Source of the DNA: a virus
Length of the DNA stretch: 36,384 nucleotides
Virus record (IMG/VR): IMGVR_UViG_3300021424_001706
Location: 1-36,384 of that record
Direction: 5' to 3' (one strand)
This document shows, piece by piece, positions 2,132 through 36,384 of the stretch (positions are counted from its first letter, which is position 1; the number at the start of each line of letters is the position of its first letter). The notes beneath the pieces were generated by a model, which saw only the letters and a list, made by a program, of their open reading frames with translations, searched no databases and had not been told where the DNA came from. The translations under genes and the position numbers were made by a program.

Positions 2132-2141
2132 GAGAATTAAA

Positions 2142-2666: not shown

Positions 2667-2668
2667 TC

Positions 2669-15166: not shown

Positions 15167-15667
15167 ATGATTTGCACCATATTCGCCACAGACCAATTGG
15201 GAACATTTGGTAACCGTGGAACCTTGCCATGGCCAATACATTCAGAAGATATGGAATGGTTTCGTGAGCACACCCTCAATCAAATAGTTGTAATGGGCCG
15301 TAACACTTGGGATGATCCTAAAATGAGTAAACCTTTACCTGATAGAATAAATTGTGTTGTTTCTAATCAACCTTTACAGCACTCAGGTGTACGTAGATTA
15401 CATGGTGATTATAAGGACGCAATTAAAAATTTACAAGAATTATATCCAAAGAAAAATGTGTTTATTCTAGGTGGCCCTAGTATCATAATGGAATGCAAGG
15501 ATTTAATTGATTACGCTTATGTAACCCACAGGCGAGGCGCAGCTTTTTCGGATGTTCGTATTGACTTACGATCTTTTATGATGGGTATGCGTATAACAAG
15601 TTCACGCCCTAGTGCCGATAAAACTTTAAACTTTTGCATTTATAAAAATATAGATATTTTTAGATAA
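15167..15667 (+). CDS. dihydrofolate reductase
   Basis: Reduces dihydrofolate to tetrahydrofolate with NADPH, restoring the cofactor consumed by thymidylate synthase. Visible: TLPWPIHSEDMEWFREHT (the LPW loop and acidic substrate-binding Asp), VVMGRNTWDD (cofactor-binding GR-TW motif), and FILGGPSI (the GG motif). The 166 residues match the family. The ThyA gene lies one gene downstream, with an SGNH-like gene between them. Its stop overlaps the next start by one base (TAATG). Confidence 0.92.
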   Translation: MICTIFATDQLGTFGNRGTLPWPIHSEDMEWFREHTLNQIVVMGRNTWDDPKMSKPLPDRINCVVSNQPLQHSGVRRLHGDYKDAIKNLQELYPKKNVFILGGPSIIMECKDLIDYAYVTHRRGAAFSDVRIDLRSFMMGMRITSSRPSADKTLNFCIYKNIDIFR

Positions 15668-20194: not shown

Positions 20195-21285
20195 TTCCTT
20201 TTTTCGGAATTCATAGACAGTACCAAAATATTCGCGAAGAAATATTAGAAATAACAGATCGGGTGTACTCTACCGGTCGCGTCCTCGATGGCGCTTACAC
20301 AGAACACTTTGAAAATAAAATAGCAAAACGGTGTAACAGAGCATATGCATTAGCAGTCAATTCTGGAACACAAGCATTGATTTTTGCACAAATGGCCGCG
20401 GTGTCCAGACCGCCATATTCAATTTTAATTCCTACTGTGAGTTTTGTGGCTACTATCAATAGTGTGCTAATGAATAATTTTACTCCAGTGTTTTGTGATA
20501 TCGATCACAAAGGACTAATTGATCTTGATAGCTACGAATATAAGCTTGATCAAAGTGTTGGCGCTGTCATGTATGTTAATTTGTTTGGCAACTGTGTAGA
20601 CTGGGACAGGTTTCAAATGCAGACCAGATTCTTTAATGATGATTTAATTATTATCGAAGATGCTGCACAAAGTTTCGGAGCAAGTTATCAGGGCGTTCCT
20701 AGTGGAAAACTCGGCGATATCAGTGTTTTGAGTTTTGATCCAACTAAAAACTTGAACAATTACGGTAGCGGCGGAATGATTCTAACCGACGACTATCATA
20801 TATATGAGACATGTCGAACTCTCAGGGACAATGGTAAAAGTATCCACGACACTCCAGGAACCAATAGCAAAATGAGCGAAAGTGATTGTGCTCAAATGCT
20901 TATCAAATTACAACATTTTGATTCGTGGCAGAGGAGGCGCAAAGAGATAGCTGATTATTATATTAACGAATTATATCAATTTGTTGACATTTCGGTACCA
21001 AACAAGGGCGTCGAACATGCCTGGCACAAATTTGTAATTAGAACTAATAACAGGTCAGCTTTAATGGGTCATCTGGCCAGACAAGGAATAGAAACAAAAA
21101 TACATTATGAATCTGCTCTGTATGATTTAGGTGTAGGATTTAATTACATAGATTACGGAAAAGATTTATTCACAGAAACTGCTGCCTTTACTCGAGAATG
21201 TCTTAGCCTGCCTATCTATCCCGAACTTTTAGATAGCGAAGTTGAAACAATTGTAGAACAAATTAAATTTTATATAGATTCTTAA
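20185..21285 (+). CDS. DegT/DnrJ/EryC1/StrS-type PLP-dependent sugar aminotransferase
   Basis: A 366-residue aminotransferase. The PLP Lys188 sits in SFDPTKNLNNYGSGG, EDAAQSFGA holds the Asp that pairs with the pyridine nitrogen, and NSGTQALIFA binds the phosphate. LRDNGKSIHD and ESDCAQMLIKLQ, then the C-terminal WHKFVIRT, fit the sugar aminotransferase family (normally 370-400 residues). With the epimerase it suggests synthesis of an amino sugar nucleotide used by the glycosyltransferases on either side. It is the last + gene of this block and overlaps the convergent gene on the other strand by 23 bases. Confidence 0.9.
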   Translation: MQVIPFFGIHRQYQNIREEILEITDRVYSTGRVLDGAYTEHFENKIAKRCNRAYALAVNSGTQALIFAQMAAVSRPPYSILIPTVSFVATINSVLMNNFTPVFCDIDHKGLIDLDSYEYKLDQSVGAVMYVNLFGNCVDWDRFQMQTRFFNDDLIIIEDAAQSFGASYQGVPSGKLGDISVLSFDPTKNLNNYGSGGMILTDDYHIYETCRTLRDNGKSIHDTPGTNSKMSESDCAQMLIKLQHFDSWQRRRKEIADYYINELYQFVDISVPNKGVEHAWHKFVIRTNNRSALMGHLARQGIETKIHYESALYDLGVGFNYIDYGKDLFTETAAFTRECLSLPIYPELLDSEVETIVEQIKFYIDS

Positions 21286-23122: not shown

Positions 23123-24395
23123 GTATAATATAAACAGCCACTATAATTTTATTCTACAACATGCAAAAATAAACTACGATATATCGCCAAAACTTGCTTA
23201 CTTCTTTCCGTTTGGTGCAACTGCGTTCTCACAGCTTGAAATATTAGGTACAACCGACCCTGATGTATTTTTTCTGTGTTTTGATCAAGAACCTTTAAAC
23301 TACCATTATAACTTTGACACTTTTTCAAAATTTGATAATTTGACTGTAACTTCCAATGGCAGTCAACAAATCAAAGAATCTACACAATATAGTCAATATT
23401 GGAAAAATGATATATCTTTAAAATACAGATCATTAAAATATAAAGACAAAGTTCCTACTATACTACTTAACACAGAAAAAGATAGTGACGAAAAAAATAA
23501 AATTTTAGAAAAATTTAATTATATTGATTGTTACTATTTTTACCATGCCCTAGCAGCAATAGATTGGTACCGAGGTTATCAATTCTGTAGTGAAATTATA
23601 CCAATACGAAAAAGAAAAATAGAAAAAAAATTTATTACATTTAATAGGATAACTGGCAATTCTAGAATTTATAGAGCTTTTTTTGTCGCTAAACTCAGTC
23701 AACAAAATCTATTAGATTATGGCCATATAAGTTTTAGTAATGTTTGTCCAGTTCACGGTAAATTACAGTTCTCAATTGTCAAAACATTAGAACAGTTTGG
23801 GTTAGACAAAAAATTTGTTTTCCAAGAATTAGATTATATAACCAATCTTCCAAGTCTAAGAATTGATAGTGAGCACAATATGCCTATTGACAATTCAAGT
23901 TTTACTCTTGAGCCTATTCCAAAATTGATGCAAAGTTTTGTTCATGTTGTTACAGAAACCTGTTTCTGGGAACGCAAGAAACATTTAACTGAAAAAATTT
24001 TTAAACCTATAGCGTTGAAACAGCCTTTTATATTGTTAGGGTGTGTTGACAATCTTGCATACTTAAAAGAATACGGATTTATAACATTTGACAAATGGTG
24101 GGATGAAAGTTATGATCAATGCCAAGATCCAATTGAGCGAATCGATATGGTCGTTGATATAATAAAAAGTTTAAGCAAACTATCAAATAATGATTTAGAA
24201 AAAATGTTATATGACATGGAGGAAGTTCTTGAGTACAATTACAATTTGTTTTACAGTAAACACTTTGTTGATCAAATATGGAACGAATTACAAACAAATC
24301 TCAATTCAGCAATTGCTCAAGCTCTAGACCAGACTTTTCTAGAAAATTTAAACCGTTTTTATTTCGATACAAATCTCTATATACAACCTTGGTAA
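23121..24395 (+). CDS. glycosyltransferase-like protein (second GT10-like copy)
   Basis: A 424-residue protein with the same C-terminal set as the gene at 17291: LTEKIFKPIALKQPFILLG, then YLKEYGFITFDKWWDESYD, and an RITGNSRIYRAFFVAKL segment in the middle. The N-terminal half (LAYFFPFGATAFSQLEIL) is unlike its paralogue. Probably a glycosyltransferase on a surface glycan. Its ATG overlaps that of the divergent neighbour, and its last 95 bases overlap the dCMP deaminase gene tail-to-tail, so it is the only + gene to the right of 21285. No clear Shine-Dalgarno sequence. Confidence 0.7.
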   Translation: MYNINSHYNFILQHAKINYDISPKLAYFFPFGATAFSQLEILGTTDPDVFFLCFDQEPLNYHYNFDTFSKFDNLTVTSNGSQQIKESTQYSQYWKNDISLKYRSLKYKDKVPTILLNTEKDSDEKNKILEKFNYIDCYYFYHALAAIDWYRGYQFCSEIIPIRKRKIEKKFITFNRITGNSRIYRAFFVAKLSQQNLLDYGHISFSNVCPVHGKLQFSIVKTLEQFGLDKKFVFQELDYITNLPSLRIDSEHNMPIDNSSFTLEPIPKLMQSFVHVVTETCFWERKKHLTEKIFKPIALKQPFILLGCVDNLAYLKEYGFITFDKWWDESYDQCQDPIERIDMVVDIIKSLSKLSNNDLEKMLYDMEEVLEYNYNLFYSKHFVDQIWNELQTNLNSAIAQALDQTFLENLNRFYFDTNLYIQPW

Positions 24396-24774
24396 TACCT
24401 GATTGATATATCAATTTTGCACATTCTAAACAAGGACTATGTGTTACAAACATTGTAGCACCTTGTCCAGATTCTGGCGATTTTGCTAATTTGGCAATAG
24501 CATTGGTTTCAGCATGCAGGACTTCTGGTTTGGTGGTTAGTGTAGAAGTTTTCACTTGTATTGTATTACCGTCCAAATCTTTAGCGTTATTGTATTCAGT
24601 TACCAATTCATCCTCGCAATTGTTATCCCAACCAGCAGGCATTCCATTATAGCCAATTGAAATAATTCTGTCATCTTTGACAATAATAGCTCCAACTTTC
24701 AATCTACGTGCCAAACTAAGTTCTGCAAACGTTTGTGCTGTTTTCATGTAGGCACGTTTAAATTTGTCTTTCAT
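24301..24774 (-). CDS. dCMP deaminase
   Basis: Deaminates dCMP to dUMP, the substrate of the ThyA encoded in this window. Zinc site: HAE at residues 87-89 with Glu89 as proton shuttle, and PCLEC with Cys115 and Cys118. RRLKVGAIIVKDDRIISIGYNG and the WDNNCEDE segment match T4-type dCMP deaminase, which has an extra zinc site. At 157 residues it is slightly shorter than T4 Cd (193). It is the last gene of the minus-strand array, coupled by four bases to the nucleotidyltransferase upstream. Confidence 0.92.
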   Translation of the reverse strand: MKDKFKRAYMKTAQTFAELSLARRLKVGAIIVKDDRIISIGYNGMPAGWDNNCEDELVTEYNNAKDLDGNTIQVKTSTLTTKPEVLHAETNAIAKLAKSPESGQGATMFVTHSPCLECAKLIYQSGITKVVYRDLYRNKNGLNFLEKSGLELEQLLN

Positions 24775-25346
24775 TCGATGCCCATTTGTTTTCGTATAGT
24801 GGTTGCTGATATAGCCTGTGTAACATCGTCAAATGTTTCTTCTTCGATGAGGTAACCAACATCACGACCATATGTAATATTAACTATATTAGGAACAACA
24901 ATGATTTCATATCGTCCTTTATACTCGGGATCAAGATCAGCACGAATATACTTTTTAACTTCTTCAAGATTAAACGGATTACTGTGATTCCATCCTTGGC
25001 AATCTCTTATCATAATACACACTTGTCCGGTTTTCTTTATTGCTCTTTCAAATAATGCACGATGCCCTGCATGCCACGGTTGCCAACGACCTAACATTTG
25101 CACTGTGGGTTTTCGCCAATCAAATGTAGGTACTGATTCTATACAAGCAGTTTGATTTACAATAGACAAATAACCTTCACAATAAACATTCCATTTTTCA
25201 ACACCGTTTTCAACAGTGACATCGTCGCGCATAGGAACACGGATATCTAGGTGTTCAACTAAATGTTCTACTCCATTCTCGAACACACGCCAAACTTTAC
25301 CATTGCTATTATGTTGGTGATTGAATCTTATGTGATATTTGTTCAT
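24771..25346 (-). CDS. HxGH nucleotidyltransferase with unknown N-terminal domain
   Basis: A 191-residue protein from the ATG at 25346; an ATG at 25373 would add nine residues inside the kinase gene. The first 70 residues (YHIRFNHQHNSNGKVWRVFE) form a beta-rich domain I recall from marine phages but cannot name. The C-terminal domain has GRWQPWHAGH (HxGH at 92-95) and ISATTIR at 179-185, the two nucleotide-binding signatures of the cytidylyltransferase/NMNAT/ATP-sulfurylase superfamily. It overlaps the APS-kinase-like gene by 38 bases. The pair may activate a phospho-sugar, choline-like alcohol or sulfate. Which one is not decided by sequence. Confidence 0.8.
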   Translation of the reverse strand: MNKYHIRFNHQHNSNGKVWRVFENGVEHLVEHLDIRVPMRDDVTVENGVEKWNVYCEGYLSIVNQTACIESVPTFDWRKPTVQMLGRWQPWHAGHRALFERAIKKTGQVCIMIRDCQGWNHSNPFNLEEVKKYIRADLDPEYKGRYEIIVVPNIVNITYGRDVGYLIEEETFDDVTQAISATTIRKQMGIE

Positions 25347-25740
25347 ATATTGTCCTTGCCCATCGACCTGCATCTTGCTCGGTCACTCTTACATCGTGTG
25401 TTTCGGGCGGAAGAAACACACGATTAGTATCTTCAAATCTACCCTCTGCTATTGTATCTACCCAAATCAAAAAGTGCGGATCGTAAATGTCGCGCATTTC
25501 TTTTAGGGGACAAACAAAATCTGCAATTACATAATCTTTGTTTGAAACATCTGCTATTTCTCTCATTCGTCGGCTTTGACGAATTCGTCCTTCATAGCTG
25601 AAATCCCAATCATTAAATTTTTTTCTTATTTCATCTGCATTTAACCAGAGAACATCCGGACTAAAATAGTTTAATAAATTTATTGCAAGCGTAGTTTTGC
25701 CTGCTCCGGGCAATCCCATTATAAGAATTCTAGTTGTCAT
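25309..25740 (-). CDS. APS-kinase-like P-loop kinase
   Basis: A 143-residue kinase with Walker A GLPGAGKTT near residue 9 and LWLNADEIRKKFNDWDFS, the nucleotide- and substrate-binding segment of adenylylsulfate kinases (CysC). YVIADFVCPLKEMRD follows the CysC pattern. It is shorter than bacterial CysC (about 200 residues) and its substrate may be a small alcohol or sugar instead of APS; phage 'APS kinases' next to nucleotidyltransferases are often of that kind. No sulfotransferase was seen in the window. Gap of 19 bases to the upstream SGNH-like gene. Confidence 0.78.
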   Translation of the reverse strand: MTTRILIMGLPGAGKTTLAINLLNYFSPDVLWLNADEIRKKFNDWDFSYEGRIRQSRRMREIADVSNKDYVIADFVCPLKEMRDIYDPHFLIWVDTIAEGRFEDTNRVFLPPETHDVRVTEQDAGRWARTIYEQISHKIQSPT

Positions 25741-25759
25741 GAAAAAACCTCACCATTTT

Positions 25760-26464
25760 TTAGAAATCTAATTTTTTATCTTTTATATGTTTTTTAAGTT
25801 CTAGTGCCCATTCATAATGAGCTAATTTGCCTGGATGTATTTTATCTTTATCAAACCAATTATTTTTTTTAGTGATACTGTATATATTATTTGTTGTACA
25901 ACAATTCGTCCAATTGATTAAATTATATAGATTTTCATTTATACTTTTTAAGTCTAAAACATAATCTTGATAAAAAGTAAATATATATAATACCCCCAGC
26001 TGCATTAGTATACTTTGTAAAGAAATTATCTTTATGAGGAAAGAGTCTACCATTTGATTATAACTTACATTCTTATAGTATGAATCAAACAAATTCATAC
26101 ATTCTTTATCGTTATTTAAATACCCACAACCAAAAATCCAATCTTTTTGAACAAAGTCTTGATCATTAACTGGATGTATTATTTTTTCAGGCCAATCGTT
26201 TTGCTTGTGCTGAAAATTTGAAGTAAAAATGGTGTTAAAATTCTTTACGGTTCTGTAATCTATTCTATGTGGTTGAGACCACATAATAATAACTGCATCG
26301 TAATTTCTTAATGATAATTCTGTAACTGTAGATTCAAAAATATAAGTATTACCAGCACCGGACTGTGCGAGATTTATCAATTCAAAATTATACATTGATT
26401 GTAAAGCATGCGGCCAACTATCAGGACCTCTGCTAAAGCTACAGCCATTTGTTAACACTCTCAT
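25760..26464 (-). CDS. SGNH/GDSL hydrolase-like protein (GCS type)
   Basis: A 234-residue protein with block I NGCSFSRGPDSWP at residues 6-18, Cys instead of Asp before the Ser. Central motif VIIMWSQPHRIDYR is of the W-S-x3-R-x-D type. The C-terminal block DKDKIHPGKLAHYEWA keeps a regular DxxH. Ser nucleophile and D/H pair are present, so it may be active. It overlaps the carbamoyltransferase by four bases (ATGA), indicating coupled production. Substrate unknown. Confidence 0.78.
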   Translation of the reverse strand: MRVLTNGCSFSRGPDSWPHALQSMYNFELINLAQSGAGNTYIFESTVTELSLRNYDAVIIMWSQPHRIDYRTVKNFNTIFTSNFQHKQNDWPEKIIHPVNDQDFVQKDWIFGCGYLNNDKECMNLFDSYYKNVSYNQMVDSFLIKIISLQSILMQLGVLYIFTFYQDYVLDLKSINENLYNLINWTNCCTTNNIYSITKKNNWFDKDKIHPGKLAHYEWALELKKHIKDKKLDF

Positions 26465-27942
26465 GAAAATACCTTTACACCGTATTTACTTTCAAATCTA
26501 TCTGCGTCGTCTCGATCATTTACCATTGGCTCACCTTTGATATTTAAACTTGTGTTTAGTAGCATAGGGCAGTCAGTCATTACAAACCATTTTTCCAATA
26601 ATTGTCTGATGCCCGAACCGTCTGCTGGTACCGTTTGTACTCGACTGGTCCCATCAACATGGCAGATAGCAGGAAAACGGCTAGGATACCAACAATGAGC
26701 GACTGACTGCATATAACGGCTATTAGGCCACCCGTTGCGGAAATCAAAGTACTGATCAGCCATCTCCTCCAATATGACAGGGGCAAAAGGTCTGAATTTT
26801 TGTCTGCGTTTAATTTCATTTACTCGATCCTTGATGTTAGGTCCTCTTGGGTCCGCTAATAAACTTCTATTACCTAAAGCACGGGGACCAAACTCTGCAC
26901 GACCACTAGCAACACCGCAAATACCGTCAGATAATAAACTATCAAGTATGGGTGTAACGGGATATGGTCCCGGAATATCGTGGCCCAGATAAGCATCGAC
27001 CCAATTAACACGACGCCCATAAGCGAGAGCGGCAGCGCCAAGACTGCTACCAGCATCACCAGGATTAGGCATAATCCAAATATTTTCAAAGTATTCTCCA
27101 AGGTTTCTATTTGCCAAACAGTTTAATGCTACACCACCCATATAAACAAGATTTGCACTCCACGCAAAATCTCTTGCTCGACGCATCACATTGTATACCA
27201 ATCTTTCTAAAACTTTTTGTGCTGCTGCTGCTAAATCTGCGTCATGCACATCTGTTAAAAAATCATTTGTAATACCAACATGTAAATTTTGTTTAAATGT
27301 AGTTTCCCATTCGTTTACAATCAACTCATCTTGTAGTGTGCTGGCATAACCGTTTCTTCCATATGCGCTCATACCCATTAAAATGTATTCATCTTCGTTA
27401 GGTTTTAATCCTACTCTTTGAGTCATTGCGCTATAAAACAATCCTATACTATGAGGATATCGTTGACCCCATAGTCGTTTATATTGGGCTATTCCACGAC
27501 TGTCGTACTCCGCGCCCCATATGCTAACAGTGTCCCACTCACCACTTGCGTCAATGACTACTACTGTTGCGCGATTGTATGGACTTGTTTGGAAGCCGGC
27601 TGCTGCATGACTCATGTGATGATTATGACTACTGTAACTGGGAATATGTGCCCATCTGCCAAACTGTTCTGTCAAGATCCTTCGAGTAGATAAACGATTC
27701 CACTCTATACCTTCTTCACTGTACAATCTTCGTAATTGTTTCTTCCACGGAGTTTCATAATATGCAACATGAGCAATAGGAAACTGATCCATGATATCAT
27801 CCATCATGGCACGACAAAGATTGGCATCGTTTTTGACCCGGCTGTAACGTTCGCTATGCGCTGCATACAGTATATCGCCTTGGCGATTGATTACTGCGGC
27901 AGCAGCGTCATGAAAGCCAGCACTTATTCCTAATATGTTCAT
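26461..27942 (-). CDS. NodU/CmcH/TobZ-type O-carbamoyltransferase
   Basis: Transfers a carbamoyl group from carbamoyl phosphate, through carbamoyl-adenylate, to a hydroxyl on a sugar or small molecule. The N-terminal Kae1-like domain begins NILGISAGFHDAAAAVI; HNHHMSHAAAGF holds the metal-binding His, VIDASGEWDT and GGVALNCLANRNL bind ATP, and the C-terminal part has GRAEFGPRALGNRSLLADPR, then NTSLNIKGEPMV. At 493 residues it is shorter than the 550-600 usual for the family, and the end after GEPMV is short. It overlaps the SGNH-like gene upstream by 35 bases. The carbamoylated molecule is unknown; a phage glycan or modified base is possible. Confidence 0.9.
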   Translation of the reverse strand: MNILGISAGFHDAAAAVINRQGDILYAAHSERYSRVKNDANLCRAMMDDIMDQFPIAHVAYYETPWKKQLRRLYSEEGIEWNRLSTRRILTEQFGRWAHIPSYSSHNHHMSHAAAGFQTSPYNRATVVVIDASGEWDTVSIWGAEYDSRGIAQYKRLWGQRYPHSIGLFYSAMTQRVGLKPNEDEYILMGMSAYGRNGYASTLQDELIVNEWETTFKQNLHVGITNDFLTDVHDADLAAAAQKVLERLVYNVMRRARDFAWSANLVYMGGVALNCLANRNLGEYFENIWIMPNPGDAGSSLGAAALAYGRRVNWVDAYLGHDIPGPYPVTPILDSLLSDGICGVASGRAEFGPRALGNRSLLADPRGPNIKDRVNEIKRRQKFRPFAPVILEEMADQYFDFRNGWPNSRYMQSVAHCWYPSRFPAICHVDGTSRVQTVPADGSGIRQLLEKWFVMTDCPMLLNTSLNIKGEPMVNDRDDADRFESKYGVKVFS

Positions 27943-28555
27943 AAATTTTTTCTGCTATAATTTCATGGCCTTGTTCAAGTGGATGGCCACCGGGTCCATG
28001 TGGCAAACCGTAGGTCCATTCTCCTACACTTGTAAACATACCATCAACAAACATTGAATGATCTATTGCATCAATCAAGGTTTTGTGCTTGGAATGATAA
28101 ATTTGATGACTTTGATGAGAACCACAAGCAATAAACATAACACAAGGAACATTATGAACTTCACAAAAACTTTGAGCCAATAAAATTTGTCTTAACCAAT
28201 TGGCATAATAGTACTCAGGCACATCGTATGCAGTTATATACTTGATTAAATTAATTCGATGGGTGGGATCATCTAATTGTATGGCTCTGTAATTTCTACC
28301 GGCCCATATATCATACACTCCAATTTCGTCGGCAAATTCCTGTCTATTACAATCTGACCATCCAATAATAACTAAATCACTTTTGTCTAAAACACAGTGA
28401 ATCAATCTTTTAACTATACGTGTATTTCCACTTGCAGGTCTTCCTAAATTGGCCACATGTTTATGTAATTTATTAGACAAGATCGTAGGCCACGCTAAGT
28501 TTTTACACTCAAGTTCGTCACCGTATGTGAAACTATCTCCTATTGCATGGATCAT
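27908..28555 (-). CDS. SGNH/GDSL hydrolase-like protein, tandem copy 1
   Basis: A 215-residue protein from the ATG at 28555, chosen because it overlaps the upstream stop as ATGA and puts block I, AIGDSFTYG, near the start; an ATG at 28573 would add six residues. The central motif is VIIGWSDCNRQEFADE, then VYDIWAG. The last block is GGHPLEQGHEI with no Asp at the DxxH position. It is clearly a paralogue of the next gene (28552-29220): both share GDSFTYG, the GWS-x3-R-x-E-F motif and the Y-D-x-W signature. Possibly duplicated in tandem. Confidence 0.82.
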   Translation of the reverse strand: MIHAIGDSFTYGDELECKNLAWPTILSNKLHKHVANLGRPASGNTRIVKRLIHCVLDKSDLVIIGWSDCNRQEFADEIGVYDIWAGRNYRAIQLDDPTHRINLIKYITAYDVPEYYYANWLRQILLAQSFCEVHNVPCVMFIACGSHQSHQIYHSKHKTLIDAIDHSMFVDGMFTSVGEWTYGLPHGPGGHPLEQGHEIIAEKIYEHIRNKCWLS

Positions 28556-29220
28556 GGTGTCAATGCCCAGCACTGCTGATTTACATAGTTTAACACTTTT
28601 CCAGCTACCAATGTATGGCCGTCTTCAAGGAAATGCCCCCTTGAACCCTGTTTACAATTTTTTGTCCATTCTATCATTCCACTGATATTAAAATCTAAAA
28701 AATTGTCTGTGTTTATTTGATCATGATATTGCTTGATTCCATCAAAATATAATTTTTTATAATAATCATTTTGCATTATGTTCATCATCACATACTTGAT
28801 TTTTTTACTTTCTAAATAGCTTTGCAACAAAATTATTTGTTGAATAAATTTTAAATGTAAAGCTTGTGGATTATGATATTGAGAAACATATTCTATCATG
28901 TTTTTCCGCCAATGGAAATTATTGGAGAGATGTGAATCTACAGTATACCCGGGCCATACATCATAATAACCCAGTTCATCACTGAATTCCATTCTACCAG
29001 GATTAGACCATCCAATTAAAACCAAATCAACATTATTATTTCGTAAGAGATAATCTAAGGTTAATCTTAAAATTTTGTCATTACTAGCAGCTGGTTTGGC
29101 TAAATTAACCACGTCTGCATTTAAAATTTTACCGACTTGATATGGCCATGCATTGTAAATATTTTTAAGCTCTTCGCCATAAGTAAAACTATCGCCAACT
29201 GATAGGATATTTTTAATCAT
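28552..29220 (-). CDS. SGNH/GDSL hydrolase-like protein, tandem copy 2
   Basis: A 222-residue protein with block I SVGDSFTYGEELKN, central motif VLIGWSNPGRMEFSDELGYY, and last block RGHFLEDGHTL, where the regular Asp is again absent. Very similar in layout to copy 1 downstream and more distantly to the gene at 29272. Ser of GDS is present; the acid may be supplied by Glu/Asp in LEDGH. Its ATG overlaps the stop of the 33-residue gene upstream, and its TGA overlaps the ATG of copy 1. Confidence 0.8.
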   Translation of the reverse strand: MIKNILSVGDSFTYGEELKNIYNAWPYQVGKILNADVVNLAKPAASNDKILRLTLDYLLRNNNVDLVLIGWSNPGRMEFSDELGYYDVWPGYTVDSHLSNNFHWRKNMIEYVSQYHNPQALHLKFIQQIILLQSYLESKKIKYVMMNIMQNDYYKKLYFDGIKQYHDQINTDNFLDFNISGMIEWTKNCKQGSRGHFLEDGHTLVAGKVLNYVNQQCWALTP

Positions 29221-29318
29221 TTGTAAATAAATGGATCGCGTTTACGAAGTTCTCGTAGTTTACGTCTATATCTAATTTCTAATTGAACTCTGTTCCAAAG
29301 GTTGCGTAACCAGTTCAT
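29217..29318 (-). CDS. 33-residue highly basic protein
   Basis: A short open frame starting MNWLRNLWNRVQLEIRYRR and ending RKRDPFIYK. The Lys/Arg density and helix propensity suggest a nucleic-acid-binding or membrane-surface peptide. It ends in an ATGA overlap with the SGNH-like gene downstream and overlaps the SGNH-like gene upstream by 47 bases in another frame. I recall a small cyanophage protein with a similar KRDPFIY end. The coupled arrangement and composition support it. Confidence 0.6.
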   Translation of the reverse strand: MNWLRNLWNRVQLEIRYRRKLRELRKRDPFIYK

Positions 29319-30111
29319 TGAATTTGTCCTTTATTAATTCTGCTGCCACTTTATGTGCTTGTTCTAATGGGTGTGTGGTACCTACAGGATATTTATTTTC
29401 AACCGCCCATTGATAAAATCCTCTTGGTGTTTTGGTTTCATTCTGATTGGTTCCGGCTGGAAACCAAAACCAATTATTAAAATCAATTTGCTTTTGCAAA
29501 CTTGTAATATATCCATCTGCCTGCTCTATGGTATAGTTATACAATATGCTATTATCTGCACAGGTAAACAGATACGGAATACTGTTCACTTTTAAATAAT
29601 TTTGCAAGTAAACAATTTCTTTAAGTGTGCTGTAGATTTCCCAATACTCGCTACTACCTACATGTTCGTAAAATGTTTTAGCAAAAAATAATGTGCCAGT
29701 TTGTTTGGCTTTGATATGGTGCTGCTTGAATACTTCTTCGATATATTGATTTTTTTTACTAAATTCTCTAGTAACAACATCAGGATTTTGAATAGTCCAA
29801 CTGTTAAAAGCGTACCACGGACTTTTTTTCTGTCCTGTATCATAACTGAATCTAAATTCGTACCTCCCCGGGAATGTCCAACTTACAATAACTCCACATT
29901 TAGGGTGTTTGCTAGACTCTGCAATAACAGTTCTTGCGATACTGTCATTGGCATATCCAGGCCAAGCTACACATTTGTAATCTGCATTTTTTGATATCAA
30001 TGCCGAAAATGTACTAACACTGTGTCCAAAAATTCCAGCCGGGGTATTATCCTGACAGTCGGCTAATTCGCTGCCGTACACAAAACTGTCACCGCCTGCT
30101 ACTATAATCAT
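29272..30111 (-). CDS. SGNH/GDSL hydrolase-like protein, third copy
   Basis: A 279-residue protein with block I AGGDSFVYGSEL at residues 5-16. Central motif VIVSWTFPGRYEF is the W-T-x3-R-x-E-F form, and the last block is TTHPLEQAHKVAAEL, akin to GHPLEQGH in copy 1. A longer middle region (about 60 residues more) separates it from the tandem pair. Likely Ser-dependent esterase or acyltransferase, substrate unknown. It overlaps the unknown gene upstream by 23 bases. Confidence 0.78.
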   Translation of the reverse strand: MIIVAGGDSFVYGSELADCQDNTPAGIFGHSVSTFSALISKNADYKCVAWPGYANDSIARTVIAESSKHPKCGVIVSWTFPGRYEFRFSYDTGQKKSPWYAFNSWTIQNPDVVTREFSKKNQYIEEVFKQHHIKAKQTGTLFFAKTFYEHVGSSEYWEIYSTLKEIVYLQNYLKVNSIPYLFTCADNSILYNYTIEQADGYITSLQKQIDFNNWFWFPAGTNQNETKTPRGFYQWAVENKYPVGTTHPLEQAHKVAAELIKDKFNELVTQPLEQSSIRN

Positions 30112-31189
30112 ATCCCGGTCTCATCATATCTATTTGCATCTGTTTATAATTGGCATCAGCCCATGAATAATCAAAGGTACTAGCTGTTCCGTCTACTTCA
30201 ATTTTATAGATGTCAAGGTGTCCTCCTAGCATTTCCCAAATTTTTCGATAATCTAACGTTCCAAAACTCCCTTGTAAATCCACTTGTGCTATAGGAAGAT
30301 ATCCACAACTTAATTTTGGATCAAGAGCATCTTTGCCGTTATTTCTCATCCAGGCTCTAAATAAATCTTGATCTTGATTATACCAAGGTACATTTGCACT
30401 GCCATAAATCATATCATTACCCCATTCTATATCAAACTCGCCACTGTAATATTTCAAATCTGTGATTGCTTCACACACAGTATCGGTCAAATTAGGAGCA
30501 CCTTCATCTCGAAAAACTTCATAGTACGTTTTGCCAATTTGTGTCCAATGCATGTAAACGCCGCCTAATACACGATCGTAGCCATTATTTGCAAATAATT
30601 TCCTATGTTCGTCTTTTAGATCATATCTAGCGGCATTTATAAATGTTGTGATTTGACTAGGACGCACCCATTGAGGCACAGTAACCAATTTTCTTCGACT
30701 TAAAATTAAAGTTTCCAGTTCGTGACAAATATTGTTTAATTGTCTAATAGCATATTTTGTTTCATAATTGGCTCGTTTATAATAATCACTGAGTTCCCAT
30801 ACTGTGCCTTGTAACACTTCAAAATGATTATGTAGTTTATTTAATTTTTCGTGATTAGGACCATCAGGCGCATAGTCATCGGCAATTACATTGGATGGTG
30901 TGTAAAAATCATCAATATAATAATCACTAAAAAAATCATTAATTGTTGCTACCGCTTCATCGAGTTGTTGGCACAAATATTCTACTGTTCTTGCTGTATT
31001 AGGAAATCCTAAAAAACAAAAGTTTTTTTCTAATAGATTTTTATTTTGTAGTAATTCTTTAAGAGCAACAATCCAATCTTCGGCCAATTGATTATCGTAA
31101 GGTACAATATTATAATCAATTTGATCTGCATAATTTAACGGATTACGCAATACTATTTTAACCAATGGCAGTCCACCACTCATACACAT
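30089..31189 (-). CDS. unknown protein associated with the radical SAM array
   Basis: A 366-residue protein that I do not recognise. The conserved-looking N-terminus is VKIVLRNPLNYADQIDYNIV; ATGs at 31189 and 31183 and a TTG at 31165, which gives MVKIVLRNP, are all possible starts. Further features: KNFCFLGFPNTARTVEYLC, then a long helical region (ELETLILSRRKLVTVP), and a W/Y-rich C-terminal half (EFDIEWGND; FDYSWADANYKQM). No Cys cluster. I have a vague memory of similar proteins beside such radical SAM genes in marine phages. It may be a substrate or partner protein; this is inference. Confidence 0.7.
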   Translation of the reverse strand: MCMSGGLPLVKIVLRNPLNYADQIDYNIVPYDNQLAEDWIVALKELLQNKNLLEKNFCFLGFPNTARTVEYLCQQLDEAVATINDFFSDYYIDDFYTPSNVIADDYAPDGPNHEKLNKLHNHFEVLQGTVWELSDYYKRANYETKYAIRQLNNICHELETLILSRRKLVTVPQWVRPSQITTFINAARYDLKDEHRKLFANNGYDRVLGGVYMHWTQIGKTYYEVFRDEGAPNLTDTVCEAITDLKYYSGEFDIEWGNDMIYGSANVPWYNQDQDLFRAWMRNNGKDALDPKLSCGYLPIAQVDLQGSFGTLDYRKIWEMLGGHLDIYKIEVDGTASTFDYSWADANYKQMQIDMMRPGYDYSSRR

Positions 31190-32447
31190 CTGCTCTCTTT
31201 GAAAGTATTTGATCCATAGTAATAGATTGGCTACGAATAGCTTCTAATTTTAACACACGAGCTCGGCCTTGCACAAGACCAATGCGGTAAGCTTGTTCGC
31301 CATATTGCTCTTGAAAGGTAGGGCGTGTTCGTAACTGAACTAGTGTATCCTTTAATGGTCCGGCTACTCCGGCGTTTATGATTTCATCTACCCAGGGATC
31401 TAAAATGGATCTAGGTAGGGCTAAAGGTGACATAACTATGTCCGGCGAGAAACTAAAGACAACCTTACTAAGGATGTCAACGCCCAAATCATTACCCAAC
31501 TGCTGTATATTAACGACTTCAAACATGCCCGGTAGGGTAAGTGTAAAGTCCAATCTCATTTGCCTACAGTGCGTAGAGAATCTAATTCCTGTCTTAAAAT
31601 TTGCAAGCCATGCTTCATAATCAAGACCTGTTCGGATATATTCTCCAATTTGGCCTGTGCCGTCGATACTGGCACAAATTTGCCAATCGCGCAAATGAGC
31701 AAGTACATCTTTATAAAGATTACAACCTCTATAATCAACGCGACTAAGATTAGTGTTGTATCTGGCGTAAACACGTGGTCCATCTCCTAGTTCTATAATG
31801 CGCTGCATATACCGCCAATGCTGTTCATACATTAACGGTTCTCCTCCCACCCAATAAACTTCCTCTACACGGTGGTCCTCTACTGCTGCTGCAAACTCTG
31901 CTTCAATCTGAGTTGTCTGGAACTGTTCAATTTGTTTTTTAATTTCAGGTCGCATCCACGAATTCTTGGGATCAGACCAATCGATCATTTCGTGTTGTCG
32001 TTGTTCGCTTTCCCACGAACTACTTAACATGTCGCCGCACATACGACATTTGAAATTGCAAAGATTACTGAATCTGTAATCCCATGAAACAGGCTCCATT
32101 GTTGTGTGTCCCGAAGCGTCTGTTGTTTCTACTACTTGTTTGTACTTATGGGCAAATAAATTGTTAAAATAACTGCGGTAAACATCTGTGTTTAACAATC
32201 GATCGTTACATACTTCACACTCGGGTAATACTTCTCCGGCCATCATGCGTCGGCGTACACTACGCATATGATCACTGTTCCAATGCTCTTCAAGTGTTAT
32301 AGGAATATACTTGCCTGTGCCCACGGCACTATCAATATACTGTTTAAAATTTTGTGCGGGTTCTCTACTGGCACAACACATGCGTCGTTCAGTTTGTGGA
32401 CTCAAATAAGTATGAGTCCAAGGTGCCATACATAAATTATGCTGCAT
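31158..32447 (-). CDS. radical SAM protein with N-terminal SPASM/twitch-like Cys cluster, copy A
   Basis: A 429-residue radical SAM enzyme. The cluster motif CNFKCRMC is at C130, C134 and C137, and VGGEPLMY (GGEP) binds SAM. Before the core lies C6, a CC pair at 24-25 and C77-x2-C80, resembling the auxiliary [4Fe-4S] pattern of SPASM/twitch domains (CMAPW...CC...CxxC) that normally lies after the core. It overlaps the unknown gene downstream by 32 bases and the SGNH-like gene upstream by 11. It has no Trp-rich or peptide-binding (RRE) motif I can see. Substrate unknown. Confidence 0.85.
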   Translation of the reverse strand: MQHNLCMAPWTHTYLSPQTERRMCCASREPAQNFKQYIDSAVGTGKYIPITLEEHWNSDHMRSVRRRMMAGEVLPECEVCNDRLLNTDVYRSYFNNLFAHKYKQVVETTDASGHTTMEPVSWDYRFSNLCNFKCRMCGDMLSSSWESEQRQHEMIDWSDPKNSWMRPEIKKQIEQFQTTQIEAEFAAAVEDHRVEEVYWVGGEPLMYEQHWRYMQRIIELGDGPRVYARYNTNLSRVDYRGCNLYKDVLAHLRDWQICASIDGTGQIGEYIRTGLDYEAWLANFKTGIRFSTHCRQMRLDFTLTLPGMFEVVNIQQLGNDLGVDILSKVVFSFSPDIVMSPLALPRSILDPWVDEIINAGVAGPLKDTLVQLRTRPTFQEQYGEQAYRIGLVQGRARVLKLEAIRSQSITMDQILSKRADVYEWWTAIG

Positions 32448-33162
32448 AATTGTCTAAATAATTTTTGCAATTATTTTTAATATACTCGATCACAAATTCA
32501 CTAATTCTTTTATGCCGATCTGTAGTTGGATGCCCATCTTCTGTTACTTGATTTAGATTGCGAACAAATTCAAACATGCCTATATGTTTATTGAATGTTA
32601 TCCAGTTGGATTTTCTTATATCTAAAGCCTGTTGAAACCATTCTGGAGAATAATCATAAATTGCATTATTCATTAACATAAAAAAATAATTAAATTTACG
32701 CAATTCTAGATACGATAGACCTTGAATAATAGTGACGGCTGATAAAATATCGACTTTTTGATTACCAAAATGTTTGCCAGTGATCCAACCAAATCCTAAA
32801 GTATCACTAATGTGTGTTATGCCATCGATATCAATACAACACAAATTTTTGTTCACTTGAACATTTGCAGAATCACTAATTGCGTCATATCGATGCATTC
32901 CAGTTAAATTTATACCTATGAGCGTATTGTCAGGTGTAAATGTTTTATTATTTTCTAACACATAGATTAAATTGGTAAATGCAGCTATGTTGCCACCGCC
33001 AGGTATAGCCAAATTAACAAATTTATCTTGTGCAGGATTCATTTCAGCAAAACAAAAGTGTGGCCATACGCTACCTCGATTTTTCCAAGCTATTTTGTTT
33101 TCGTGAGGCAACGGAATCACGCCTGCTGTAAAGCTACATCCTGTTGTTATTAAATTTTTCAC
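32437..33162 (-). CDS. SGNH/GDSL hydrolase-like protein (GCS type) within the radical SAM array
   Basis: A 241-residue protein with block I TTGCSFTAGVIP at residues 6-17, central motif IGINLTGMHRYDAI (a variant of W-[ST]-x3-R-x-D without the Trp), an AIPGGGN block II with an extra Gly, and last block EDGHPTTDRHKRI. Ser, Asp and His are all present. It lies exactly between two radical SAM genes: its stop overlaps copy A by 11 bases and copy B's stop lies at the base before its start. The tight fit suggests a joint function, such as transfer of a group formed by the radical SAM enzyme. Confidence 0.75.
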   Translation of the reverse strand: MKNLITTGCSFTAGVIPLPHENKIAWKNRGSVWPHFCFAEMNPAQDKFVNLAIPGGGNIAAFTNLIYVLENNKTFTPDNTLIGINLTGMHRYDAISDSANVQVNKNLCCIDIDGITHISDTLGFGWITGKHFGNQKVDILSAVTIIQGLSYLELRKFNYFFMLMNNAIYDYSPEWFQQALDIRKSNWITFNKHIGMFEFVRNLNQVTEDGHPTTDRHKRISEFVIEYIKNNCKNYLDNYAA

Positions 33163-34377
33163 TTAATACCCCATTGCCAATGCTATTTCTGAATGTGTAT
33201 TTTTAAAATTTTGTTTTCTATAAGTATCTGTTCTTTGCATTTTTTCTCGAAATTCGGAGCCGTCACTACCTGGGCCTTGTTCGATAAATTTTATTACATT
33301 GTCAACTTCTTTCAAATAATTTTTATTTTGCCAAAAATGAGTTTTTAATTTATTTAAAACCAAGTCTTGAGCCTGTGGCGTCATATGCTGTACACTCATA
33401 TGATCTGGGCTATGCATCATGTTAAAATACACGCTGCCAAACGGTTTGGTATCTGCCCACGCTAATAATTCATCAAGATAGTAAACATTTTGCACATTTA
33501 TGGTAAAACAAAGTTGTGTAGTAATGTTTGGCATCGTGACTTGGCTGTAATGTACATAATCAATAATTTCATTTGCCAATTCCCATTTAGCGCCGTACCG
33601 TTCGTATTCAAATCTGGCACCCACATTGTCAATACTAAATGCAATATCTACACGACCAAACTCTTGCCAAATGACAGCATCAAACTCTCCGGGCATCTGG
33701 GTAGCATTTGTATTATAATGTATATCAATATTTTTACTGTATCCTTGTGCAACTGCGTATTTTAATAAATCAAAGTGTTCTTCAATTAACCAAGGTTCGC
33801 CACCAGTGAATTCAAGATACTTGATATTAGGCAATAGTGTTTTTAGATTATCCCAAAAATTTGTATCTTTGTTTCTTGGCCACGCACCTTGCCGTAGCCA
33901 CTGATAGGCAATATGCGACTTTTTATCAAAATCTTTTGGCATATAATCTAGTTCTTCTGCTGCCCATTTACTGCTAGACCAAGATCCGCATATTCTACAT
34001 TTAAGATTACAAATATTTCCCAACTTTAAATCCAGAAACCAAAGTTGATCCGGATCGTCATTTGCCCAATCAACTAACTCATATAATTCTTTTAATCTTA
34101 CCCTACTGTGTATTCTTTTACTTGTTCTACCGGCTGCCTCTTCGTCCCAACACAATTTACAAGTGCTAGGCTTTTCTCCGGCTCTAAATTGTCTACGAAG
34201 ATTTTGCATGTATTCACTGTGATAAATGTTTTCTAAATTGTCTTTGTTAAGATCAAACTTGTTACCATCACTGTTTGTGATTTCGTTTCTGGCCAAGCAG
34301 CAAGGTCTAGCAGTACCAATAGGACTGGTTTCAATGCTTACCCATGGAAGCATACATATTGTTTTAGGCAAGATCAT
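33163..34377 (-). CDS. radical SAM protein with N-terminal SPASM/twitch-like Cys cluster, copy B
   Basis: A 404-residue protein. N-terminal C8 (CMLPW), CC at 26-27 (ARPCCLAR) and C73-x2-C76 precede the radical SAM motif CNLKCRIC at C123, C127 and C130. TGGEPWLIEEH binds SAM and YNTNATQMPG follows. The layout equals that of copies A and C. The N-terminal part resembles the SPASM pattern 'C-x2-PW...G...CC...IY' with a helix carrying EYMQNLRRQFRAG. It overlaps copy C by 14 bases. Substrate unknown. Confidence 0.85.
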   Translation of the reverse strand: MILPKTICMLPWVSIETSPIGTARPCCLARNEITNSDGNKFDLNKDNLENIYHSEYMQNLRRQFRAGEKPSTCKLCWDEEAAGRTSKRIHSRVRLKELYELVDWANDDPDQLWFLDLKLGNICNLKCRICGSWSSSKWAAEELDYMPKDFDKKSHIAYQWLRQGAWPRNKDTNFWDNLKTLLPNIKYLEFTGGEPWLIEEHFDLLKYAVAQGYSKNIDIHYNTNATQMPGEFDAVIWQEFGRVDIAFSIDNVGARFEYERYGAKWELANEIIDYVHYSQVTMPNITTQLCFTINVQNVYYLDELLAWADTKPFGSVYFNMMHSPDHMSVQHMTPQAQDLVLNKLKTHFWQNKNYLKEVDNVIKFIEQGPGSDGSEFREKMQRTDTYRKQNFKNTHSEIALAMGY

Positions 34378-35830
34378 TTAATTCAGGAAATGTGTTCCAA
34401 AAGTTTTCATTTCTAACACTGTCTAGTTTTTTGATTTGTGCTTTAAAGCTTTCAAATTCAATAGTTTGTTTTTTTTCTTTTACAAATTCTTCAATTTCTC
34501 TGTTTATTTCTTCATCATCAGTTCTTTTTCCTTTTTGAAAATCTTCCCAGTCTGGCCACGACGAACTTTTTTGAGTTTCATACTCAAATTCCTGTAGGTT
34601 AACCTGTATATCTGAATTGTTTGTTTGAATAAAATTTAATAGTGATTCGTATCCATTTGTAGCTCGTTTAAGTGAATCAACTGGTCGTAGCCAGTCAAGA
34701 TGCCGTTTATAGGCAGGCACAATTACTTGATCTTTAAATTCTTTAGGAAAAATATTTGCACGATACCAGTTAGGACTCTGACACAAGTTAATATTAAAAT
34801 CTTTAGCTTGAATTAATCCTAGTTCTGTCCATTCACGATGAAAATCTAATACATGTAATACGTTCATAGCACTTACAGTGGCACTGACGTAAAAATCAAC
34901 ATGCGGAACTTCTTGCATCATGTGTCGTCGATTCTCTAGTGTTTGAGACCAATCTGTGCCTTTACGCATGAGTTCAGCACGCTCTCCGCTGGCATCCAAG
35001 CTGGCACCTACGCTGACGTTTTTGAAGTGCTTCCAATAGTCAAACACATGTTTATCTTTGTATCTCAATTCACTAAAATTTGTATTGTATTGAATCCTGA
35101 TATCTGTCTTGCCATGTTCAATTAACTTTTCTAATAAGAAATAATGTTCCTTCATAATTAAAGGTTCACCGCCGGCGAAATAAACTTGTTCAAGATATGG
35201 AATATGGGGGAGCATTTGCTCGAGCATGGCGTCTTCATCGCCGGCGGTGTATTCAACTCGTGCCATGTCTCTGCCAAGTACATCGGGCTTACGATTATAA
35301 AGTTTAACATGATCATTATACCAGTTGCTACTAAAAATTGGACCGCAACTGCGACAACTAAAATTACAAAGATTGCTAAATCTGACATCCCAATACCTTA
35401 TCTTGAATTCTGGATGAGTACCATCTGGCAGTGTTTGATCTATTTCTGCTATATGATGTCCATAATTACGATTACTATCGTATCGCATACTAAAGAAACC
35501 ATTTGCTTCTTGTTCATAACACTTGGTACATTCTTTGCACGATTTGTCCTCTAACATGTTTTGACGCATGGTTTTGTATGCGTCTTGGTTCCAAACTTCT
35601 TCCATGGTATTTTTTCTTAAATCTCCAACTGGATGCCAGTAATCTGCAAGACAACACGGATAGGCACGGCCATCTGGAAATGCATGCATATGAACCCAGG
35701 GCATCATACAGAATGTTTTGCTTTCAGTTAGACGTTGCCAATGTTGGTTTGACAGTTTTTCTTTTTCTATAAAATAAGGAGAACGGGCATTATACACATA
35801 GCCTTTATTGTAAAAATCTTTTACACTCAT
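34364..35830 (-). CDS. radical SAM protein with N-terminal SPASM/twitch-like Cys cluster, copy C
   Basis: The longest copy at 488 residues. After a 38-residue leader come C41 (CMMPWVHMHAFPDG), CC at 59-60, and C98-x2-C101 plus C104, then the radical SAM motif CNFSCRSC at C155, C159 and C162 and AGGEPLIMKEH. The C-terminal 50 residues are a charged helix ending DSVRNENFWNTFPEL, a motif that recurs in the incomplete copy D. The extra length may hold a substrate-recognition part. It overlaps copy D's end by four bases and copy B's start by 14. Substrate unknown. Confidence 0.85.
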   Translation of the reverse strand: MSVKDFYNKGYVYNARSPYFIEKEKLSNQHWQRLTESKTFCMMPWVHMHAFPDGRAYPCCLADYWHPVGDLRKNTMEEVWNQDAYKTMRQNMLEDKSCKECTKCYEQEANGFFSMRYDSNRNYGHHIAEIDQTLPDGTHPEFKIRYWDVRFSNLCNFSCRSCGPIFSSNWYNDHVKLYNRKPDVLGRDMARVEYTAGDEDAMLEQMLPHIPYLEQVYFAGGEPLIMKEHYFLLEKLIEHGKTDIRIQYNTNFSELRYKDKHVFDYWKHFKNVSVGASLDASGERAELMRKGTDWSQTLENRRHMMQEVPHVDFYVSATVSAMNVLHVLDFHREWTELGLIQAKDFNINLCQSPNWYRANIFPKEFKDQVIVPAYKRHLDWLRPVDSLKRATNGYESLLNFIQTNNSDIQVNLQEFEYETQKSSSWPDWEDFQKGKRTDDEEINREIEEFVKEKKQTIEFESFKAQIKKLDSVRNENFWNTFPELNDLA

Positions 35831-36384
35831 ATGTTAATGAACCAATCAGCTAAATTAGGAAAAGTTTTACAAAAATCTTTTTTCCTTCTTATATCGTATT
35901 GTGTATAAAAATTTTTGAAATCTTTTTGTAATACATCTTGTTCTGCTGCTCCGGTATGAGAAGTTTTAACCACGTCAAGATAATCAATCAAACGTTGTAG
36001 CTGATTCCATTCATATTCGTGTACAAACTCTGAACCTTGGTGTCTAGCCATAAAGTCTATAAGTTGATCTTTATACTTGGTGCGTATTTGGCTAGGTAGT
36101 ACTAGGGCAGATTGAAAACTTGGAAAACGTAGGATATTTAAAGAAAAGTTCACCGCTTCTCGACCATAGCATAGTTTTAAATTAATTACCCATTCCAAGA
36201 AGTCTGTTAAACTGTCTAAACACAGTGCATTGATAGTACACATGATGTGCAAAGCACGTAGTTTATGATCAATTTGATGGTCTAAGATTAATTCTACAGT
36301 ATTAGCCCAATCGTCCCAGGCCAATCCGTCTCTAATATACTCTGAGTGTAGGCCGATGCTTTCATTACTAGTGTATAGGTCCCC
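35827..36384 (-). CDS. radical SAM-family protein, copy D, N-terminal part beyond window
   Basis: The open frame continues to the right edge without a stop, so 185 C-terminal residues are visible and the gene starts outside; a TTG at 36324 is not a likely start. The visible part (NESIGLHSEYIRDG, then LAWDDWANTVELILD, HIMCTINALCLDSL) matches the post-GGEP half of copies A to C, with the Asp-x-x-W repeat and the SATVSAMNVL-like segment of copy C. The end RRKKDFCKTFPNL corresponds to RNENFWNTFPEL in copy C. Catalytic cysteines are outside the window. Family membership is inferred from this alignment. Confidence 0.7.
   Translation of the reverse strand, partial: GDLYTSNESIGLHSEYIRDGLAWDDWANTVELILDHQIDHKLRALHIMCTINALCLDSLTDFLEWVINLKLCYGREAVNFSLNILRFPSFQSALVLPSQIRTKYKDQLIDFMARHQGSEFVHEYEWNQLQRLIDYLDVVKTSHTGAAEQDVLQKDFKNFYTQYDIRRKKDFCKTFPNLADWFINI

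Follow-up and report, generated by a model that had tools for sequence, protein, structure and literature searches.

What does a phage do with a row of radical S-adenosylmethionine (SAM) enzymes? The question is raised by a viral DNA of 36,384 bases (IMG/VR record IMGVR_UViG_3300021424_001706; "the window" below means this whole stretch), in which 24301–36384 is filled by 14 genes of the open reading frame (ORF) list, all on the minus strand and in the order R4 R3 R2 S5 R1 U S4 S3 S2 CT S1 KIN NT dCD (Table 1). They encode radical SAM enzymes (R), SGNH-like proteins (S), a protein of no assigned family (U), a carbamoyltransferase (CT), a kinase (KIN), a nucleotidyltransferase (NT) and a dCMP deaminase (dCD). 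A preliminary description had recognised this co-directional array, named its enzyme families and suggested a joint pathway acting on a "glycan, nucleotide or peptide". Matches to Pfam and NF033640 bear out the families given for dCD, NT, KIN, CT and the radical SAM genes. As to the target, we tentatively favour, with slightly less than even confidence, a locus that would build and decorate a glycan, probably for the virion's own tail fibres.

Other phages have the gene set as a unit too; about a hundred related phage sequences carry it. Loci were scanned around the best 80 of 95 R3 matches and the best 80 of 111 U matches in viral contigs, with genes called by a simple ORF caller; the R3-centred counts omit eight loci of 38–42% identity (L075, L076, L078–L080, L082–L084). 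Where at least 9 kb lay downstream of R3 (58 loci), R2, R1 and U were always present (58/58), together with CT in 54 loci, KIN/NT in 45, S4 in 43, S2/S3 in 41 and dCMP deaminase in 27. Viewed from U, R1 was found on the upstream side in 64 of 64 loci, R2 and R3 in 62 of the 64, and on the downstream side (59 loci) X619 was found in 58, CT in 51, the epimerase in 45, DegT in 43 and the GTa cluster in 32. The conserved neighbourhood thus reaches past position 24301, where the locus had been taken to end, and continues to 19220: GTa, X619, DegT and the epimerase (19220–24395) belong to it too. By the test that the preliminary description had proposed, linkage of this kind favours a system, although most of these phages are related to one another. 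Once near-copies were removed (loci with R1 below 95% identity were kept), 95 non-redundant loci remained of 140 with R2, R1 and U. R1 adjoins U in 93 of these 95. Between R2 and R1, 33 loci have no gene and the other 62 have genes from 30 families; this position is a variable cargo slot. Also carried in the wider locus are a DegT fragment, an oxidoreductase and additional radical SAM subfamilies, one of which has a B12-binding match that stays below cut-off; other cargo reads, by eye, as 2-oxoglutarate oxygenase-, sulfotransferase- and amidinotransferase-like, without a Pfam match where tested. Among named phages, the R3 search returned Vibrio phages K566/K567 as well as a single-cell marine contig with CT adjoining a radical SAM gene; K566 carries a related radical SAM array. 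Phage-like contigs with the module were also seen in bacterial and archaeal metagenome-assembled genomes (L168–L172, L205 and L212; Pacearchaeota, Pelagibacter, Rickettsiales and others), and are probably misbinned phage contigs.

The radical SAM genes form an unusual row of five. R1–R3 exceed the NF033640 (N_Twi_rSAM) cut-off of 170 bits (Table 1), as do the whole R4 and R5 (285 and 307 bits), both taken from an overlapping contig, L005 (IMGVR_UViG_3300021093_000034). According to Pfam, a SPASM-type cysteine region precedes, rather than follows, the radical SAM domain in R1–R3; in R3, SPASM spans residues 41–104 and Radical_SAM residues 150–314. The N-terminal Cys set, CxxxCxxC and GGE are invariant in 39 aligned proteins (R1, R2, R3 and other array types), the invariant cysteines listed for R2 being C8, C26, C73, C76 and C123xxxC127xxC130, and the same three features were seen in R4 and R5 by reading. 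In a tree of 125 radical SAM proteins, R1 to R5 form separate lineages (support for R1, 100), each retained across phages, including the marine contigs L170/L171. The deep joins of this tree are unsure, with several forks unresolved, because it was built by a quick method, has long branches and places a few extra copies (L012_R2, L126_R2 and L153_R3) outside the lineage of their label. Such genes are abundant in these phages: nine phage records of 157–374 kb (G002–G010) hold 9–16 NF033640 matches each at E 0.001, of which 6–13 are over the cut-off, and many lie outside the array, scattered, by eye, among replication and structural genes. IscU is encoded in six of the nine (split over two frames in G004) and A-type Fe-S carriers in eight. 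In another locus (L250:16590–18509), IscU and an A-type Fe-S carrier stand either side of an N_Twi radical SAM gene.

Contig L005 shares 4298 bp with the window end at 100% identity and extends the locus upstream. R4 is truncated by the window end, with its Cys motif outside; the whole gene (L005:8649–10004) confirms it as the fourth of the four radical SAM genes claimed, and a fifth, R5, follows there. Next come a glycosyltransferase-like gene, a 309-aa relative of X619, the conserved genes c12, c11 and c13, and then c16, c19 and c21, the last being a tail-fibre-like gene with a match to Peptidase_G2, an intramolecular chaperone. The R3 loci with 9 kb upstream (n = 55) all have both an R4/R5-type gene and the 309-aa relative of X619; c11 and c13 are present in 51, c19 in 40 and the tail-fibre-like c21 in 37, so that the array frequently lies downstream of a tail-fibre-like gene. 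Among ten phage records (G001–G010), a weak Peptidase_G2 match lies 4–8 kb upstream on the array strand in six, and a seventh has an S74 match at 10 kb.

CT carries both O-carbamoyltransferase domains over cut-off (PF02543 131 bits, PF16861 157 bits) and matches phrog_1601 (3.3e-88); its best solved relatives (PDB), decarbamoylnovobiocin carbamoyltransferase, GdmN and TobZ, have both domains as well and act on antibiotics. The array holds five SGNH-like genes, one more than had been counted, S1 and S5 being so labelled by motif only: S5 has no Pfam or PHROG match, and S1 has a chance-level Pfam match, none in PHROGs, and relatives in 20 of 168 scanned sources. In S2/S3, S11, N47, H196 and H202 are invariant in 23 aligned proteins, and the family profile matches a solved GDSL lipase (4.4e-6) over residues 2–46. 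In S4, which is without a Pfam match, S9, G52, N55, H247 and H253 are invariant in 23 aligned proteins; the S2/S3 residues we take to be those of the named SGNH blocks, and those of S4 may be so too. A profile of S4 (A11) gave no convincing match among solved structures, and S3 gave none in named phages at 1e-5. Three further SGNH-like genes were seen by motif outside the array (4307–4993, 14333–15163 and 15667–16383), and the phage would therefore have at least eight. KIN matches the N-terminal half and NT the C-terminal half of a single protein, phrog_10255; in the window the two are separate, overlapping frames (24771–25740), unlike that protein. NT matches nicotinamide mononucleotide (NMN) adenylyltransferase in the PDB (7.9e-4).

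The structures of X619 and U were modelled. On its model (pLDDT 90), X619 looks like a tandem GT-A-like protein with a predicted sugar-nucleotide activity. Its 38 Foldseek matches below 0.001 are mostly glycosyltransferases, the best being chondroitin polymerase K4CP (4.5e-7), with heparosan synthase 2 also at the top; both have two GT-A domains per chain, as X619 appears to, at 7–9% identity and a whole-chain TM-score of 0.15–0.20. Among the matches listed, the domain at about 162–297 resembles GDP-mannose pyrophosphorylase (Z 9), and that at about 387–531 matches glycosyltransferases and nucleotidyltransferases alike (Z about 9–10, 126–218 aligned residues). A search of the X619 sequence against solved structures gave no match, and profiles of its 309-aa relative (A7) and of c13 (A8) gave no convincing one. 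X619 holds the motif FD[FY]xW about four times; kinship with U through a shared FDYSW motif was considered and rejected (profile comparison probability 0.2%). The model of U (pLDDT 92) appears to have a cyclophilin-like barrel that helices interrupt, and compares with cyclophilins at VIA Z 8.0–9.8 (rmsd 3.3–4.0 over 130–152 residues); the best VIA row among the matches listed is a trypanosome mitoribosomal protein (Z 10.5). Foldseek against the PDB gave no match for U at 0.001. Ten viral proteins match U at E <0.001, one of them from Agrobacterium phage Atu_ph07, and the search of named phages gave none, even at E 10. A 768-aa phage protein in BFVD (A0A6J5T9P3) matches U along its full length, and U may therefore be fused to a second domain there.

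R1–R5 are old lineages that occur in Bdellovibrionota as well, the phylum to which predators of the Bdellovibrio type belong. One Bacteriovoracaceae chromosome (L173) has a run of eight N_Twi genes, in which copies group beside R1 (support 100), R3 (97), R4 (100) and R5 (99). An R1-like match at 1e-30 was found in 25 of 129 genomes of the class, five besides that of L173 at 38–49% identity; the five regions fetched (L273–L277) contain R1 alone or with R2, R3 or R4. Seventeen of these 25 genomes, a set not representative of the phylum at large, were searched for neighbours, counting only matches over cut-off, with expected counts calculated from uniform placement of genes. In 7 of the 17, a PqqD/RRE gene (RRE, recognition element of ribosomally synthesised and post-translationally modified peptides, RiPPs) stands no more than 2 kb from an NF033640 gene (0.18 expected). 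A distance of up to 20 kb separates such a gene from a CT in 11 genomes (0.6 expected) and from a small S74-domain protein likewise in 11 (0.24 expected); the S74 places called "small", 12 of 49, were chosen after their open-frame length had been seen. PqqD, an NF033640 radical SAM gene, CT and a small S74 protein occur together within 20 kb in 10 of the 17 genomes. Of all 17, two are without any S74 match and two without a CT. In eight such regions (L278–L285), the radical SAM protein by the PqqD gene is R5-like (36–40%) or R4-like (46–48%). Ten genes of three regions (L278, L280 and L282), examined with Pfam, include GT4-type glycosyltransferases, CT, DegT, an ABC-2 exporter with its ATPase, and S74; in three bacterial regions a long prepilin-like protein was recognised by motif. 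Three of the small S74 proteins were read: they have a conserved N-terminal stretch in common and open frames of 151–173 aa with no fibre part. A tally of Pfam families around bacterial N_Twi genes was dropped as too diffuse; its near set (124 of 136 proteins, seven phage-like loci omitted) held 10 radical SAM, 3 GDSL, 3 GT2 and 2 CT proteins, and in its far set the 25 families listed for 97 proteins included 2 GT2 proteins and no radical SAM, GDSL or CT.

Glycosyltransferases, an epimerase, DegT, a carbamoyltransferase and SGNH proteins together are typical of glycan-building loci. We favour a glycan because the locus has this gene set and because R4/R5 relatives recur in bacteria with CT, glycosyltransferases and DegT, and we regard the fibre as the most likely target because fibre-type proteins accompany the locus in phages and bacteria alike. 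Of the three products first proposed, the glycan has thus gained ground, from X619, DegT and the epimerase and from the bacterial clusters; DNA is disfavoured by the thymidylate synthase residues considered below, and a peptide stays in play through the RRE beside bacterial R4/R5. In the pathway that we envisage, the epimerase, DegT and possibly KIN/NT would supply activated sugars, and X619 and its 309-aa relative would assemble the chain as GT-A-type glycosyltransferases. Each of R1–R5, partnered by U, would then perform a radical step of its own, such as the dehydrogenation, epimerisation or deoxygenation of a carbon in the sugar or linker; CT would add carbamoyl groups, and the SGNH proteins would add or remove acyl groups. 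The R2–R1 slot could serve as an exchange site at which decorating enzymes are swapped between phages, the whole set serving one joint product.

Several observations weigh against this proposal. Three of the ten phage records (G002, G003 and G007) have no fibre-chaperone match near the array, such matches being far from it in G002 and G003 and absent in G007. The second domain of X619 resembles nucleotidyltransferases rather than glycosyltransferases. Minimal versions of the locus (L160–L164) hold only radical SAM genes, U, X619 and sugar genes, without CT, SGNH or KIN/NT, and in 8 of the 80 R3 loci, those of 38–42% identity, the radical SAM genes stand in a different cluster without U. (These eight loci show a glycosyltransferase-like gene, two to four R3-like radical SAM genes, often a 720-aa gene, another radical SAM gene and an R2-like gene.) Synteny continues past the array into ThyA and DHFR, and because it extends beyond the array in these related phages, conserved order alone is weak evidence, partly reflecting ancestry. 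In the literature searched, no NF033640 protein with a product or phenotype was found. In the six bacterial regions L173 and L273–L277, R1–R5 relatives lie among mostly housekeeping genes (in L173 these are ribosomal protein L21, identified with Pfam, and genes that read as SpeD-, Obg- and Lgt-like), and BLAST of 8.5–20.5 kb found no relative of CT, S4, X619 or U; nor did it find an SGNH relative in the 20.5 kb of L173. This setting counts against a glycan only in part, because CTs lie 12–14 kb away on the same contig in three of those genomes (G011, G058 and G126; 13 kb from L173) and because L277 has, by eye, a GT2-like gene after its R4; a PqqD-like gene was seen, also by eye, directly before that R4. 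The radical SAM set may be a thing in its own right, which in part argues against a strict need for glycan genes. Finally, the RRE beside bacterial R4/R5 points to peptides.

A broader proposal, though doubtful, is that phages and Bdellovibrionota possess one common machine for decorating adhesive fibres, whose radical chemistry would mark either the fibre itself or a glycan bound to it. In bacteria an RRE, and in phages the cyclophilin-like protein, would guide the five radical SAM lineages, which would have carbamoyl-, glycosyl- and aminotransferases as partners, and the swappable slot would let each phage alter its decoration. Phage fibres have S74 as their chaperone-protease. Bdellovibrio employs fibres with this phage-type chaperone (MAT fibres) in predation (PMC10769870). 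S74 genes also lie in the R4/R5–CT clusters; the small S74 proteins differ from the MAT fibres in having no fibre part, and the words "radical" and "glycosyl" are absent from the main text of that article.

The RRE makes a peptide product a serious alternative, though we judge it unlikely on balance: R1–R5 would put C–C, C–S or epimer marks on a peptide or fibre protein, guided by the RRE in bacteria or cyclophilin-like U in phages, and the glycosyltransferases, CT and SGNH proteins would act on the modified side chains. Many SPASM/twitch radical SAM enzymes act on peptides, and the excess of PqqD/RRE genes close to NF033640 genes, the R1–R5 relatives of L173 with no recognised glycan genes in 20.5 kb, the barrel of U and the conserved N-terminal stretch of the small S74 proteins all agree with such a product. 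In the phages, however, PF05402 (PqqD/RRE) was found in none of 12 records searched, some of them fragments, no precursor gene was recognised in the loci, and U is globular and conserved throughout, not precursor-like.

It is also conceivable, but unlikely, that the same chemistry has a host target, the locus remodelling the host surface polysaccharide (O-chain), for example to block other phages, and that its tail-fibre neighbourhood reflects only co-exchange within a host-recognition region. An ABC-2 exporter with GT4-type genes, as found in the bacterial R4/R5-like clusters, is typical of surface polysaccharide. Pelagimyophages carry glycosyltransferases and radical SAM cassettes in their tail-fibre region, for which O-chain modification was proposed (PMC7029224). 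Against a host target, the locus genes scanned (the whole records being unsearched) showed neither an O-unit flippase or polymerase nor a membrane protein like GtrA/B, and the bacterial clusters pair the gene set with S74 fibre-type proteins.

That there is no joint pathway, the locus being a landing strip for unrelated accessory genes whose order is kept by phage ancestry, is improbable. The synteny past the array, the highly variable cargo and the scatter of other NF033640 genes would fit it, but the R1–U adjacency, the retained radical SAM lineages and the bacterial R4/R5–CT linkage are unexpected of random cargo.

DNA hypermodification was suggested by the 5-hydroxymethylcytosine carbamoyltransferase of the MetaGPA study, in which modified contigs combine domains of CT, dCMP deaminase, MafB19-like deaminase and thymidylate synthase, and Asp at thymidylate synthase position 177 marks a dCMP hydroxymethylase (PMC8670742). 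For the CT of such a system the diagnostic residues are W408, G421 and R423 (TobZ numbering). The window likewise has a CT, a dCMP deaminase that matches both deaminase models and a thymidylate synthase. That the CT carbamoylates 5-hydroxymethylcytosine, with the deaminase and a thymidylate synthase-like dCMP hydroxymethylase as partners, is nevertheless very improbable, because the thymidylate synthase of the loci is canonical, with Asn177 (E. coli numbering) in 22 of 24, including the window's (the other two unread), and His147 in 24 of 24, the pattern of unmodified contigs in that study (any second gene of the family elsewhere is unsearched), and the CT neighbours are glycosyltransferase-like, SGNH, radical SAM and kinase genes.

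Within the array, 10 of the 13 junctions overlap, by 4–65 bases, one abuts and two are gaps of 19 and 51 bases, so that the overlap of 4–47 bases first ascribed to all genes applies to most of them only; nor do radical SAM and SGNH genes simply alternate, as had been stated, in the order R4 R3 R2 S5 R1 U S4 S3 S2 CT S1. Terminator-like sites in 23100–36384 are at chance level (6 found, 7.2 expected), and one transcript for the whole array is plausible. No tRNA genes were found in the window. At its other end, 1–3517, FolE-, QueD- and QueE-like genes were seen by eye, with a radical SAM match at 2885–3121, and may represent a 7-deazaguanine pathway for phage DNA.

Table 1. Genes of the array and of the adjoining conserved neighbourhood, with window coordinates
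Gene	Description	Position	Strand	Basis
R4	N-terminal-twitch radical SAM, C-terminal 185 aa only	35827..36384	-	NF033640 (whole gene)
R3	N-terminal-twitch radical SAM, 488 aa	34364..35830	-	NF033640 387 bits
R2	N-terminal-twitch radical SAM, 404 aa	33163..34377	-	NF033640 336 bits
S5	SGNH-like, GCS replaces GDS, in variable R2–R1 slot	32437..33162	-	motif by eye
R1	N-terminal-twitch radical SAM, 429 aa	31158..32447	-	NF033640 280 bits
U	366 aa, no assigned family, putative cyclophilin-like barrel with helical insertion	30089..31189	-	structure model
S4	SGNH-like, 279 aa	29272..30111	-	invariant residues
S3	SGNH-like (DUF6071), 222 aa	28552..29220	-	PF19547 5e-14
S2	SGNH-like (DUF6071), 221 aa, GTG start	27908..28573	-	PF19547 1.1e-7; GDSL below cut-off
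CT	NodU/Nol-like O-carbamoyltransferase, 493 aa	26461..27942	-	PF16861 3.5e-46, PF02543 8.6e-38
S1	SGNH-like (GCS), 234 aa	25760..26464	-	motif by eye
KIN	small P-loop kinase, APS-kinase-like	25309..25740	-	PF01583 8.4e-8
NT	HxGH-type nucleotidyltransferase, GRWQPWHAGH motif	24771..25373	-	PF01467 9e-4, just under cut-off
dCD	dCMP deaminase, final array gene	24301..24774	-	PF00383 8e-24; phrog_174
GTa	glycosyltransferase-like, GT10-like by eye	23121..24395	+	without Pfam/PHROG match
X619	619 aa, tandem GT-A-like (nucleotide-sugar transferase fold)	21263..23122	-	structure model
DegT	DegT/DnrJ/EryC1 sugar aminotransferase	20185..21285	+	PF01041 8.7e-79
epimerase	nucleotide-sugar epimerase/dehydratase	19220..20194	+	PF01370 3e-41; phrog_540

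No description of this module was found in the literature searched, which covered N-terminal-twitch radical SAM enzymes in connection with phages, and phage radical SAM genes in connection with CT, SGNH or glycosyltransferase genes. The statement that no described phage pathway has this exact set stands within that scope, with the addition that phages rich in radical SAM genes have been published (PMC5332604, PMC7029224). A T4-like environmental genome encodes an A-type Fe-S carrier alongside 12 radical SAM genes, a similar expansion with phage Fe-S assembly genes, and the portion of that report available gives no radical SAM module or function (PMC5332604). The pelagimyophage host-recognition region likewise combines tail fibres, glycosyltransferases and radical SAM genes; those phages infect SAR11, the main text of the study does not contain the word "carbamoyltransferase", and the portion available names no fixed radical SAM core (PMC7029224). 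NF033640 is named by domain only, whereas here five of its lineages follow one another, accompanied by U, CT and SGNH genes. What appears to be new is the module, together with its slot and its counterpart in bacteria; the phage glycan-modifying locus as a kind is already known.

Both these phages and the bacteria examined have many radical SAM proteins of the NF033640 type, for which no function was found in the literature searched. With a fixed core (R1–R5 and U), a variable slot for cargo and, in bacteria, a counterpart that includes CT, RRE and S74, the target of the modification becomes testable. If fibres are that target, radical chemistry would be a further way for phages and predatory bacteria to vary or protect their adhesins.

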